Assembly (NCBI GenBank): GCA_022360015.1
Contig: JAKSDQ010000158.1
Coordinates: 62,001 to 126,000, forward strand
From: Cytophagales bacterium
GTDB taxonomy: Bacteria; Bacteroidota; Bacteroidia; Cytophagales; Cyclobacteriaceae
Direction: 5' to 3'
Length of the DNA stretch: 64,000 bases
The notes below the pieces were generated by a model. It saw nothing but the letters and a program-made list of their open reading frames with translations, had not been told where the DNA came from and made no database searches. Position 1 is the stretch's first letter, and each line of letters begins with the position of its first letter. Shown one piece after another: positions 4,682 through 10,118 of the stretch. The translations under genes and the position numbers were made by a program.

Positions 4682-5446
4682 TCATTCCTTGACCTGCAAA
4701 TTATTGTCACAAAATACCTCGATAGCCTTCTGCATAAACTCAGCTAATCCTTGCACATATTTTTCATAATACTGCTTGAATCGCTCATCTTCAACATACA
4801 TCCTGCCCAGCGCCTCATATCTTTCCCTGCTTACTTCATAATACAAATTCATTTGTCGAAAATGCCTCAAAATTACCCGCTGAACCCGGATATCGGCAGG
4901 ATTGAATCCAACCATGCTAGCCAGAAGCCTGTTGATTTCTTCGTCCTCCTTTTTGTGTTTTTTCCATCCTTTTTTACCTTTTTCGCGAATTCGTTTCCCT
5001 GTTTCATCCAGGCGCTCCTGCCCCCACCTTTGCACGACTTCATCCTTTATCTGTTTGATTTCATCCTGATTAAATCCATCGTACAATTCTTTGTCACTAA
5101 TCATTTTCTCTTTGCTTTTTAAGTTTTCAATGGTTCTGTCAATTGTCAGAAGCAGTTGATGCAAACGATTTGTTTGCTTTGCAATTTGCTCTTTATGAAA
5201 CTTCAGGGCCTTAAGTGTATCAAAGTCCGGATTGTTAATGATTTGCCCTATCTCCTTTAATGGGATATCCATCTCCCGGTAAAACAGAATTTGCTGCAAC
5301 TTAAGAAGTTGCTACGGTGTGTAGATACGATAGCCCTTTTCCGACCTTTGAGCAGGTTTTAATAACCCAAGCTGATCGTAGTAATGCAGGGTCCTGACAC
5401 TCACCCGTGCCAATCCTGAGAGCTCTTTTACAGTATATGTTTTCAA
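4682..5446 (-). pseudogene. MerR-family regulator with TipAS domain, interrupted by an in-frame amber codon
   Basis: The conceptual protein (TTG at 5446) runs LKTYTVKELSGLARVSVRTL, continuing LHYYDQLGLLKPAQ and GYRIYTP. This is a textbook MerR winged-helix N terminus. A TAG follows at 5314-5312, where family members usually have Glu or Asp, and the same frame continues QLLKLQQILFYREMDIPLKE. It then runs into a TipAS-like ligand-binding domain (residues ~130-250) and ends normally. No frameshift is needed. One GAG-to-TAG change explains the break. The TipAS half could be made alone from TTG 5299, as TipAS is made from tipA in Streptomyces, but recent inactivation or a sequencing error is simpler. 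Confidence 0.8.
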
Positions 5447-5466
5447 ATCATTGCCAACAACTGTAG

Positions 5467-5942: not shown

Positions 5943-6563
5943 TTAAGCATAAGATCTTAAGTTCAGTAAATTTTTTTCAATAGTGATAATTTCAATATCC
6001 TCAATTTTCCAGTCGCTGTCATGTGTGATAATCGAGAGTTTTGATGGCAAATTCAATGATTTTAGGAGTTCGTAATAGTAGTAGTCATTAAAATCCAGAT
6101 GCGCAGGGCAAGATTCAACAACTTGTTTTTCCAATAACATTTGATGTCCGTTGTCATCAATGATTTTGACTATTTGATCTTTCTTTAAAAGTGTAGAAAT
6201 ATTATCCGCTATTGTCTCAAGGTTTTCTGTGTAATGTTTTTTATGACGATTTCTATAATCCCTTTTAAAATCAAATTTTTCAGGTAATCTACCATTATAA
6301 ACCTTCATTCGCAATTTATTCAAGGCCACAACCCGCATATACGTGTTTATTATTTCTGAAATCAATAAACTACAGACCAGCACCTTTGACTGAGGATTAT
6401 TCTTTTCAAAAAGCTTAAAAAAAATTTTAGAGTAATGCTTCTGTACGTCGTCAGTGCTGCTAAAGTCATTTAACGCAAAAATCCATACATTGGCATCCAG
6501 AAAATAGTGTTGGTCTTTGGGGGAATAAGTTCTCAGGTCAGAGATATTGAGGAATTTCGGCAC
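5943..6563 (-). CDS. PIN-domain ribonuclease
   Basis: PIN domains are metal-dependent RNases, often toxins. The 206-aa protein opens with the PIN strand HYFLDANVWIF (Asp23) after a short leader. It has a conserved acid in LLISEIINTYMR (Glu70) and further acids in DFNDYYY (Asp157, Asp160) and THDSDW (Asp182, Asp184), so a full acidic active site is plausible. The start is GTG and overlaps the stop of the STAS-like gene by one base (TAGTG), indicating translational coupling. It is longer than typical VapC toxins (~130 aa), with an extra basic segment around residues 80-110. There is no VapB-type antitoxin beside it. The partners here are a STAS-like protein and a GHKL ATPase. The operon is distinctly AT-rich. 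Confidence 0.8.
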   Translation of the reverse strand: MPKFLNISDLRTYSPKDQHYFLDANVWIFALNDFSSTDDVQKHYSKIFFKLFEKNNPQSKVLVCSLLISEIINTYMRVVALNKLRMKVYNGRLPEKFDFKRDYRNRHKKHYTENLETIADNISTLLKKDQIVKIIDDNGHQMLLEKQVVESCPAHLDFNDYYYYELLKSLNLPSKLSIITHDSDWKIEDIEIITIEKNLLNLRSYA

Positions 6564-6901
6564 TAGGAATTGATTATTGAATTCATGCTGTCCTCATGCA
6601 GCTTCCTCGCATTTTCATCAGAACCAAGCTCCCGGGCTTGCTCAATTTTGCGTTTCCATATTGCGCTTAAATCTTTAAAAATCAGCATCTTATCTAAAAA
6701 TTCAGTGTTGAACTCCAGATACAATTTGCCAATGCTAGCGTTAGTAAATGCTGTCACAACTTCCTCAATCCCATTAAAAGATAACGTAATTGGCTCATTA
6801 TCCTGGATTTCGGACTTTACAAATTCATATAACTTCAACCCTTTTCCCGGGGAAATTGCTGAACGGCTGTTGATGATATCTTTTACAAGGTAGTTTTTCA
6901 T
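6563..6901 (-). CDS. STAS-like domain protein (DUF4325)
   Basis: This 112-aa protein has the DUF4325 pattern: a short N-terminal segment, the strand NEPITLSFNGIEEVVTAF, then TNASIGKLYLEF, where STAS anti-anti-sigma factors carry their regulatory serine loop (Ser56 here). STAS proteins bind GHKL kinases in partner-switching cascades and are released or captured by phosphorylation. DUF4325 is often found beside GHKL ATPases, as here: the ATPase gene ends 29 bases upstream, and the PIN gene starts on this gene's stop codon. A role as switch protein between ATPase and nuclease is inferred from this arrangement. Confidence 0.78.
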   Translation of the reverse strand: MKNYLVKDIINSRSAISPGKGLKLYEFVKSEIQDNEPITLSFNGIEEVVTAFTNASIGKLYLEFNTEFLDKMLIFKDLSAIWKRKIEQARELGSDENARKLHEDSMNSIINS

Positions 6902-6930
6902 CTTTATAAATCTTAAATTTAATAAAAAAA

Positions 6931-7779
6931 TCAGATTTTTCTAAAAATCAAATGAATCATGGCCCCCGGAAAAGGATTTTTTATCCTGTAATTCATGTAA
7001 TGTCCTCCGGACAACGTCCAATAGCCTAAACCAGATATGATATGTATCGATCCATTATTACTTTTACAATAATCGATAATATCCTGCAAACCATACCCTC
7101 CTGGGCCATATTCCCTATTTTTGGTGGTATTACCCGGTTTTACTGCCCAATCTATAGCTGCTATATCTGTTTTTATGTCCGGGTTAGAAATTTTGATTTT
7201 TTTAAAAAACCCGTCTCCTAAATCCAGTAAAGTAAATTTTAACAAGTTTTTGTTTGGAAAGTATTGACCACAGGTATAAACCTTGTTGGTATTGGCATGT
7301 AATTCCGCATTTACAAAAACTTCGCTGAACGCCGTCTTCAATTGTTTAACAGTACTAAAAGGCAAGTGATCCAATGCCCGGTGTCCAAAGAAATCTTTTT
7401 TAAGATAAAAGGTAAATGCATCATCATTCTCCGGAGCAAACGTTTTTAAAGGAATTGTTGATTCTCTTTGATCATAAATTAGCCGCTTGTTTCCGGACAA
7501 ATAATTGAAAAAACCGTTACGAAATAAAACATGCATGTGGTCTGGGATTTCCACATAAATATAGAGCTTATTTTCCCATCTTAGTTTTCCAATGATGGCC
7601 AAAAGTAAAGATGACAGGTTTGCATCGAACATCTCAACAGCCCAGATATTTAAGGAAATTGTAGTGTACTTAAGCTTTTTTGCAAAAAAATAGAATTTCA
7701 TTATCTCCTCATATCCAAGATGGTTGGTCATGACTTCCTTCACTTCAATCGCATATTGGTGTTTACTGGTTTGTATCAA
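6931..7779 (-). CDS. GHKL (histidine-kinase-like) ATPase with N-terminal STAS-like half
   Basis: Residues ~140-280 form a GHKL ATPase: N box FSEVFVNAELHA (Glu153, Asn157), G1 box DLGDGF (186-191) and G2 box GPGGYGLQDI (225-234). No phospho-accepting histidine or membrane segment is visible, so it resembles RsbW/SpoIIAB-type switch kinases rather than a sensor kinase. Residues ~17-100 (FDANLSSLLLAIIGKL, then FRNGFFNYLSG) look like a STAS-type fold. The frame opens with TTG at 7779; an ATG at 7731 is preceded by GAAGGAAG and is the alternative start. It is the first gene of the operon with DUF4325 and PIN. A TAATTTTG -7 match lies at 7863-7856. Confidence 0.82.
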   Translation of the reverse strand: MIQTSKHQYAIEVKEVMTNHLGYEEIMKFYFFAKKLKYTTISLNIWAVEMFDANLSSLLLAIIGKLRWENKLYIYVEIPDHMHVLFRNGFFNYLSGNKRLIYDQRESTIPLKTFAPENDDAFTFYLKKDFFGHRALDHLPFSTVKQLKTAFSEVFVNAELHANTNKVYTCGQYFPNKNLLKFTLLDLGDGFFKKIKISNPDIKTDIAAIDWAVKPGNTTKNREYGPGGYGLQDIIDYCKSNNGSIHIISGLGYWTLSGGHYMNYRIKNPFPGAMIHLIFRKI

Positions 7780-7960
7780 CTTATGTCAGCTTTTTTGATA
7801 AAAAATCTGTAATCTTTATACGAAAAATCAAGTCTTTGACATAGAGCTATGATTTCAAAATTACCAGGAATATATTATGGTCTATCAGCCAGCTTAAAAA
7901 AGGTTAATTTAATACGATTAATGAAAATACCAAAATCTGATCCGGGTTAAATTTGGGAAA

Positions 7961-8573: not shown

Positions 8574-10118
8574 TCAAATCATTTTTTCCATAATATCACT
8601 CAATAATATTTCACCGGTCATCTCTTTGGGTGTCTCCAAACCCATGAGGGTAAGAATAGTGGGTGCCAAATCCCCCAATTTGCCATCGTTAATAGGCTTT
8701 TTATATTCCTTATCCACCAAAATGCAAGGCACCAGGGAGGTGGTATGGGCGGTGTTAGGGGTGCCATCCGGGTTAATCATAATATCTGAGTTACCGTGGT
8801 CGGCAATAATAATGGAGGTATAGCCATTTTCAAGGGCCTTTTCAACCACAACTTTAGTACATTGATCAACCGTTTCGCAAGCCTTGACGGCGGCTTCAAA
8901 TACCCCTGTATGACCCACCATATCCGGATTGGCAAAATTGAGGCATATAAAATCCGGTTCCCTGCTTTCCAGTTCGGGCACAATTTTATCGCGGATGTCT
9001 TCCGCGCTCATTTCAGGTTTCAAATCATAGGTTGCCACTTTTGGTGAAGGGCATAATATTCTTTTTTCCCCATCGAAAGGTGCCTCGCGGCCACCCGAAA
9101 AAAAGAATGTAACATGGGGATACTTCTCAGTCTCTGCAATACGGATTTGTTGCTTTCCTGCCCTACTTAGCACTTCTCCCAGGGTATTATTCAGGTTATC
9201 TTTGTCGAAGATCACTTTAACCCCTTCGAATGTATCATCATAATTAGTCATAGTGACATAGTACAGGTCCATTTTTTTCATATCCTGATCCGGAAAATCC
9301 TGTTGTGTGAGGGCGGTAGTGATTTGCCTGCCGCGGTCGGTACGGAAGTTAAAGCACAATACCACATCTCCTGGCTTGATGAAGCCCACCGGGTTGCCAC
9401 TTTCATCCACCTTGACAATAGGTTTGATAAATTCATCGGTCACTTCAGCGGCATAGCTGTTTTCAACCGAATTAAAAAGGTCCGATGCCTTTATTCCTCT
9501 ACCTTTTACCATCGCATCATATGCCAATTTGACACGTTCCCACCGTTTATCCCTGTCCATGGCGTAATAGCGACCGGTTATCGAGGCTATCTGGCCGGTT
9601 GTGTCAGCCATATGGGCATCCAGTTCTTTCAAATAACCCAATCCACTTTTTGGGTCGGTATCCCTGCCATCGGTAAAAGCATGCACGTACAGGTTTTTAA
9701 TGCTGTTATTGGCTGCTATGGTGCACAATCCTTTCAGATGTTTTATGTGAGAATGAACGCCTCCGTCCGATAAAAGGCCTATCAAATGTACATCCTTATT
9801 ATTTTGGCGTGCATAGTCCAGCGCGCCTATCAAAGTCTCATTGTTATCCAGGGTATGCTCTTCAATGGACTTATTTATTTTCACCAAATCCTGGTAAACC
9901 ACCCTTCCTGCGCCAATGTTCATATGGCCCACTTCAGAATTCCCCATTTGTCCTTCCGGCAATCCCACCGCTAAACCAGAGGCTTCCAAACGGCTATGGG
10001 GATACTTTTCAGATAGGGTGTCATAAAATGGCGTATTTGCCTGGAAAATTGCAGAAACTTTGGGATCTACCGTGATTCCCCATCCATCCAAAATCATTAA
10101 AAGTACTTTTTTATTCAT
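8574..10118 (-). CDS. gpmI: 2,3-bisphosphoglycerate-independent phosphoglycerate mutase
   Basis: This enzyme interconverts 3- and 2-phosphoglycerate in glycolysis and gluconeogenesis, using two Mn2+ ions and a phosphoserine. The 514-aa length is standard. The N terminus has the metal-binding VLLMILDGWGI (Asp11) and GQMGNSEVGHMNIGAG with the catalytic Ser61. The inserted transferase domain carries HAFTDGRDTDP and YYAMDRDKRWER. The C-terminal metal site is VGHTGV and IADHGNSD. The start ATG at 10118 is clear. It heads a two-gene unit with the downstream lipoprotein and is divergent from the DUF4783-nadC pair. Confidence 0.97.
   Translation of the reverse strand: MNKKVLLMILDGWGITVDPKVSAIFQANTPFYDTLSEKYPHSRLEASGLAVGLPEGQMGNSEVGHMNIGAGRVVYQDLVKINKSIEEHTLDNNETLIGALDYARQNNKDVHLIGLLSDGGVHSHIKHLKGLCTIAANNSIKNLYVHAFTDGRDTDPKSGLGYLKELDAHMADTTGQIASITGRYYAMDRDKRWERVKLAYDAMVKGRGIKASDLFNSVENSYAAEVTDEFIKPIVKVDESGNPVGFIKPGDVVLCFNFRTDRGRQITTALTQQDFPDQDMKKMDLYYVTMTNYDDTFEGVKVIFDKDNLNNTLGEVLSRAGKQQIRIAETEKYPHVTFFFSGGREAPFDGEKRILCPSPKVATYDLKPEMSAEDIRDKIVPELESREPDFICLNFANPDMVGHTGVFEAAVKACETVDQCTKVVVEKALENGYTSIIIADHGNSDIMINPDGTPNTAHTTSLVPCILVDKEYKKPINDGKLGDLAPTILTLMGLETPKEMTGEILLSDIMEKMI

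Follow-up and report, generated by a model that had tools for sequence, protein, structure and literature searches.

A probable VapKSC kinase-antitoxin-nuclease operon in a Cytophagales genome and the placement of its relatives in type I restriction operons

The three-gene operon at positions 5943-7779 of the window (the whole stretch of 64,000 nucleotides analysed, from a Cytophagales bacterium) was assigned to the VapKSC family with a probability of roughly 0.88, its products probably having the VapK, VapS and VapC roles proposed below. The assignment was made because the profiles of its DUF4325 and PIN proteins match chains A and C of PDB entry 9Z7O. It is further supported by the signature residues of the three proteins, the alignment of Thr50 on Ser48 of Escherichia VapS, the SpoIIAB fold of the ATPase, the linkage of the genes in 73/80 loci and the defence-type contexts of relatives. 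The vapKSC operon was named by Chambers et al. (EMBO J, 9 June 2026; PMC13373217), and no further paper on the name VapKSC was found in the full-text library searched; two papers that name DUF4325 were judged unrelated. The preliminary description of this DNA had proposed a partner switch of GHKL and STAS proteins with a nuclease toxin as its end effector; this reading was supported, and is essentially the published VapKSC (PMC13373217).

The genes are intact minus-strand ORFs. vapK (6931..7779, 282 aa) encodes a STAS-like N-terminal half and a GHKL kinase domain, vapS (6563..6901, 112 aa) a putative STAS-like DUF4325 antitoxin with a predicted C-terminal helix at residues 96-111, and vapC (5943..6563, 206 aa, GTG start) a putative PIN-domain RNase toxin. 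The tight linkage described earlier was reproduced exactly, with a 29-base gap between vapK and vapS and a one-base overlap (TA-G-TG) between vapS and vapC, as were the G+C counts of 14/60 (6241-6300) and 32/60 (9301-9360, in gpmI). G+C content of the trio is 34.4%, the lowest among all sampled 1837-base stretches of the window (mean 41.7%). In the minus-strand intergenic region upstream of vapK (7780..7960), TAATTTTG lies about 84 bases before the vapK start and weakly resembles a Bacteroidota -7-like motif (consensus match only); the full Bacteroidota promoter consensus was not found in this region.

The sodA-to-gpmI-lipoprotein order is kept in a genome of the same genus, with divergence exactly where the trio begins, and a DUF4325 match was present in only 6 of the 98 genomes of the relatives search (the window's own genome counted). 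The trio was therefore taken to be accessory DNA. The 'repeat-rich accessory pocket' proposed earlier is thus accessory, but 'repeat-rich' was overstated, since near the trio there are merely short AT-rich matches. Flanking repeats were not found, and a repeat-bounded mobile element at the trio was rejected. Inspection by eye of the first 14 kb around the trio revealed no other defence gene. A gene for a MerR/TipA-like regulator (4682-5455, minus strand) carries one in-frame TAG after its DNA-binding part.

Pfam matched DUF4325 in VapS (E 4e-10). Matches of PIN in VapC (E 0.004) and of HATPase_c_2 in VapK (E 0.16) were below the cut-off, and profiles of relatives were thus needed to secure both assignments. 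PADLOC and NCBIfam gave no match for any of the three proteins. Relatives were not found in a genome scan with the single DUF4325 protein of the window as query, and alignments were used instead; profiles were built from five loci, and the collection searched held one genome per species. The two profile matches fall in the same single PDB entry, VapS on 9Z7O chain A ("Escherichia VapS", E 3.9e-25) and VapC on chain C ("Escherichia VapC", E 1.3e-17), and in the profile alignment D23 of window VapC falls on the catalytic D28 of chain C. Sequence identity of the window proteins to related members is only partial (20-49%), which, like the lack of other defence genes noted by eye near the trio, weighs against the assignment. 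Entry 9Z7O is the 2:2 structure of VapS and VapC from Escherichia sp. E4736 (PMC13373217).

An AlphaFold2 model of VapK (pLDDT 94) comprises a beta-alpha-beta-alpha N-terminal half and a GHKL domain, and in fold it comes closest to the anti-sigma kinase SpoIIAB (1tid_C, probability 1.00). The N-terminal half aligned weakly with the STAS anti-sigma antagonist TM1442 (E 0.03), in line with an earlier remark that the ATPase has a STAS-like N-terminal half. The model of VapS (pLDDT 91) contains helices at residues 50-63, 80-94 and 96-111, pLDDT dropping from 80 to 52 along the last of these. For this model Foldseek returned only weak STAS matches (RsbS, SpoIIAA), with 9Z7O absent among the listed matches (entries released up to 2026-04-08); the identity of VapS was decided by the sequence profile.

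Conservation was counted over 95 complete trios containing 91 different kinases. Window VapK carries the signature boxes E153, N157, H161; D186-x-G188-x-G190; and G227-G228-x-G230-L231. Seven residues (E153, N157, H161, G171, Q172, G188 and G228) are invariant over the 95 trios, in agreement with the complete N, G1 and G2 boxes read earlier from the window alone (E153, N157, H161, G188 and G228 at 100%). The E-x3-N-x3-H spacing is typical of SpoIIAB-type kinases. The full acidic site of the PIN protein also held, with D23, D160, D182 and D184 at 100%, D157 at 98% and E70 at 96% of the 95 trios; with all six residues at 96% or above, the possibility that the active site is unconserved in relatives was dismissed.

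The switch residue of VapS required revision. Ser56, named previously, was rejected by conservation over the 95 relatives (Ala in 69, Ser in only 21). Position 50 holds Ser (49 relatives) or Thr (46) and no other residue, and Thr50 of the window protein (codon 6752..6754, minus strand) aligned with Ser48 of Escherichia VapS, the Ser of 'ASPF' in 9z7o_A. Helix 2 of the VapS model starts at residue 50, and STAS antagonists carry their phosphoserine at the start of helix 2. Thr50, not Ser56, is thus the predicted phosphoacceptor of window VapS, the residue that this copy would use.

ATPase, DUF4325 and PIN genes occur in the same order in 73 of 80 ATPase-seeded loci, a linkage far beyond chance in a sample that leans to PIN (its seeds were PIN-bearing loci). 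Six of the seven loci lacking the full trio are at or near contig ends, and in about 91% of the cases in which there is room for it, PIN comes next. In the DUF4325-seeded sample, which leans to PIN less (Bacteroidota, 395 genomes), the ATPase was found in 25 and PIN in 20 of the 28 loci examined. Annotated hosts include Bacteroidota, Pseudomonadota, Spirochaetota, Campylobacterota, Planctomycetota, Fibrobacterota, Thermodesulfobacteriota and Bacillota, together with methanogens in metagenome bins.

Several loci depart from the usual arrangement. Kinase and DUF4325 protein are naturally fused in one 428-aa ORF in L039:541-1827, which independently argues for a joint function of the two proteins. 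The GHKL-DUF4325 pair stands without a PIN gene in L035, L036, L037, L038 and L043; the pair in L035 adjoins an M78-type peptidase and that in L037 a phage terminase small subunit, and given these two neighbourhoods, outputs other than PIN may exist for the GHKL-STAS pair. In L063:267-9359 a complete trio is flanked by two additional VapK-like kinase genes and lies beside a Mu/Tn7-type transposase and ATPase; a nucleotide-cyclase-like gene is also present (Pfam match sub-threshold). L008:5956-16808 holds two DUF4325 genes around the kinase and a shortened PIN gene, among hsdM/S/R-like genes.

The window operon was compared with characterised systems. It shares with published VapKSC (PMC13373217) the gene order kinase, STAS protein, PIN nuclease; a VapK with a STAS-like half and GHKL domain and no N-terminal HTH (282 aa; model); a VapS related to 9Z7O chain A, with the invariant Ser/Thr in STAS helix 2 and a C-terminal helix (predicted in the window); and a VapC PIN domain with the catalytic Asp (D23, equivalent to D28) and full acidic site. 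Phage and defence contexts are also common to both. It differs from Escherichia VapKSC in Thr50 for Ser48, Met at the probable ssDNA-contact aromatic, a Bacteroidota host and a stand-alone location.

SpoIIAB-SpoIIAA, RsbW-RsbV and RsbT-RsbS likewise pair a GHKL Ser kinase with a STAS substrate and share the E-x3-N-x3-H box and the 1tid fold match, but the window operon has an extra STAS-like half in its kinase, an RNase effector and no sigma factor. As described earlier, the third gene encodes a PIN nuclease and no sigma gene is adjacent, and an anti-sigma partner-switch module was rejected on these grounds. VapBC also combines a PIN RNase toxin and an antitoxin in one operon. Membership of VapBC was rejected, since the antitoxin here is a DUF4325/STAS protein, which would be controlled by the kinase, and not a labile DNA-binding VapB. 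The closest characterised pair, CapK and CapS, regulates transcription (PMC13373217). It too consists of a STAS-GHKL kinase and a STAS substrate responding to DNA damage, but CapK has an N-terminal HTH, CapS a C-terminal wHTH, and the output is transcription, not toxin release (PMC13373217). The lengths and predicted structures of window VapK and VapS leave no room for either domain, and membership of this class was rejected.

In Escherichia, VapC toxicity depends on D28, and VapS neutralises VapC in a manner requiring its C-terminal region (residues 94-116); the S48E substitution in VapS abolishes both binding and inhibition of VapC (PMC13373217). Against phage Bas42 the Escherichia operon protects about 2-log (about 100-fold), and protection is lost with VapC D28A, VapS S48A or VapK F54A (PMC13373217). 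Direct phosphorylation of VapS by VapK and activation of VapK by ssDNA were only inferred in Escherichia, VapK being insoluble there, and so was the identity of the RNA target (PMC13373217).

By analogy, in the window operon VapS would bind VapC so that the switch helix of VapS is buried in the interface and its C-terminal helix extends toward the active site, keeping VapC inactive. VapK would act as a Ser/Thr kinase of the SpoIIAB kind whose STAS-like half serves as its sensor. Activated by DNA damage or an infecting phage, it would phosphorylate VapS, here on Thr50; phosphorylated VapS would release VapC, which would cut RNA, and the resulting growth stop would prevent propagation of the phage. 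For the window copy we infer by this analogy all that goes beyond sequence anatomy, activity included. The damage or phage signal is a proposed trigger for this copy.

The input to the kinase is where the window copy may depart from this scheme. VapK F54 and CapK W68 are aromatic residues at the predicted ssDNA site (PMC13373217), and F54 of Escherichia VapK (WP_135559716.1) probably corresponds to column 50 of the alignment, just before helix 2 of the STAS half. This column is W in 56 and F in 27 of the 95 trios (83/95 aromatic). Window VapK has Met there, so that its trigger could differ, and the aromatic is lost in the window's clade, the nearest relatives having Ser (L044/L045) or His (L047-L049). 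A VapKSC relative whose STAS-like half receives an input other than ssDNA, with the same output, would account for this loss and was given an appreciable but minor share of the probability. Against it, Phe51 directly follows the Met and could take over the contact, the remainder of the kinase is fully conserved, and the alignment is gapped in the column-50 loop.

Two further readings were considered. The window ORFs might be a degenerate, non-functional copy lying in an accessory pocket, as the in-frame TAG in the nearby MerR/TipA-like gene and the truncated PIN of L008 would suggest; all three ORFs are intact, however, and keep the full set of signature residues of the kinase, the antitoxin and the nuclease, making this quite improbable. 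Least probable, and only barely credible, is a GHKL-STAS pair that regulates transcription in a CapKS-like or anti-sigma-like way, the PIN gene being a mere neighbour. The transcriptional output of CapK/CapS and six DUF4325-seeded loci holding a GHKL-DUF4325 pair without PIN speak for it, but the 112-aa VapS lacks a wHTH domain and is matched by VapS of 9Z7O, the vapS and vapC genes share one base, and PIN is the next gene at the frequency given above. Membership of VapKSC, with release of VapC by the kinase, was retained as the preferred reading.

The trio itself is already known as VapKSC; its slot in restriction operons is not in the text of PMC13373217, which makes no mention of hsdR or prrC. 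At eight loci (L066, L069, L091, L095, L104, L109, L112, L115) a type I restriction operon on the same strand contains vapKSC or adjoins it (spans L112:1848-11101; L109:186-6603; L115:4546-9469; L104:5965-10842). The gene directly upstream of vapK is hsdS in L069, L091, L109 and L112, and hsdR lies downstream of vapC in L066, L095, L104, L109, L112 and L115, so that L109 and L112 have both neighbours. Four bases are shared between hsdS and vapK in L091, L109 and L112, and a single base between vapC and hsdR in L104 and L115. An hsd gene was present in the fetched flanks of 12/80 trio loci and in 0/20 random stretches of relatives' genomes, a random set that is smaller (160 kb vs 846 kb) and taxonomically narrower. 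The type I label requires 7 changes on the kinase tree, at least 6 of them forced by well-supported branches, and the association has thus been gained or lost repeatedly.

Other neighbours of trios are type III Res (L055, L067), a type IIG-like enzyme (L079) and DISARM/DUF1156-like genes (L074, L118). In Streptococcus phage Javan172 (L161:2045-6043) a complete trio lies between a repressor/M78-peptidase pair and the integrase; the pair consists of a Cro/CI-type repressor and an M78 (ImmA/IrrE-like) peptidase. Complete trios were also found in viral contigs L144, L146 and L147 and on Deinococcus gobiensis plasmid P5 (L162), while in viral contig L145 kinase and PIN were seen and in L148 PIN in two frames. 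The defence-type and mobile contexts of trios thus comprise type I, III and IIG R-M, DISARM/DUF1156-like genes, prophages, viral contigs and a plasmid. Among the 289 copies of vapKSC reported, 36% lie within 10 kb of another immune gene (PMC13373217).

A precedent is prrC, which sits inside the EcoprrI type I R-M operon (PMC3874165), as vapKSC does in L109, L112, L115 and others. PrrC differs in being an anticodon nuclease that the R-M enzyme itself keeps in check, the proteins are unrelated, and the window trio, unlike EcoprrI prrC, has no R-M neighbour. On this precedent it is a reasonable hypothesis, and not a result, that in part of the family vapKSC between hsdS and hsdR would be a fail-safe that senses damage or ssDNA from acting or failing restriction and then fires its RNase, a PrrC analogue built of unrelated parts, and in the window's clade the kinase might in addition read a different signal. 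We advance this tentatively, at odds well short of even.

The raw sequence bears out a system whose name dates only from June 2026, and the analysis widens the range over which that system is known in public genomes. What is of specialist interest is the position of relatives in restriction operons and the changed sensor residue, rather than the trio as such. That vapKSC repeatedly occupies the prrC slot of type I operons, with overlaps of 1-4 bases, suggests that restriction and the RNase toxicity released by a kinase are directly linked in function.
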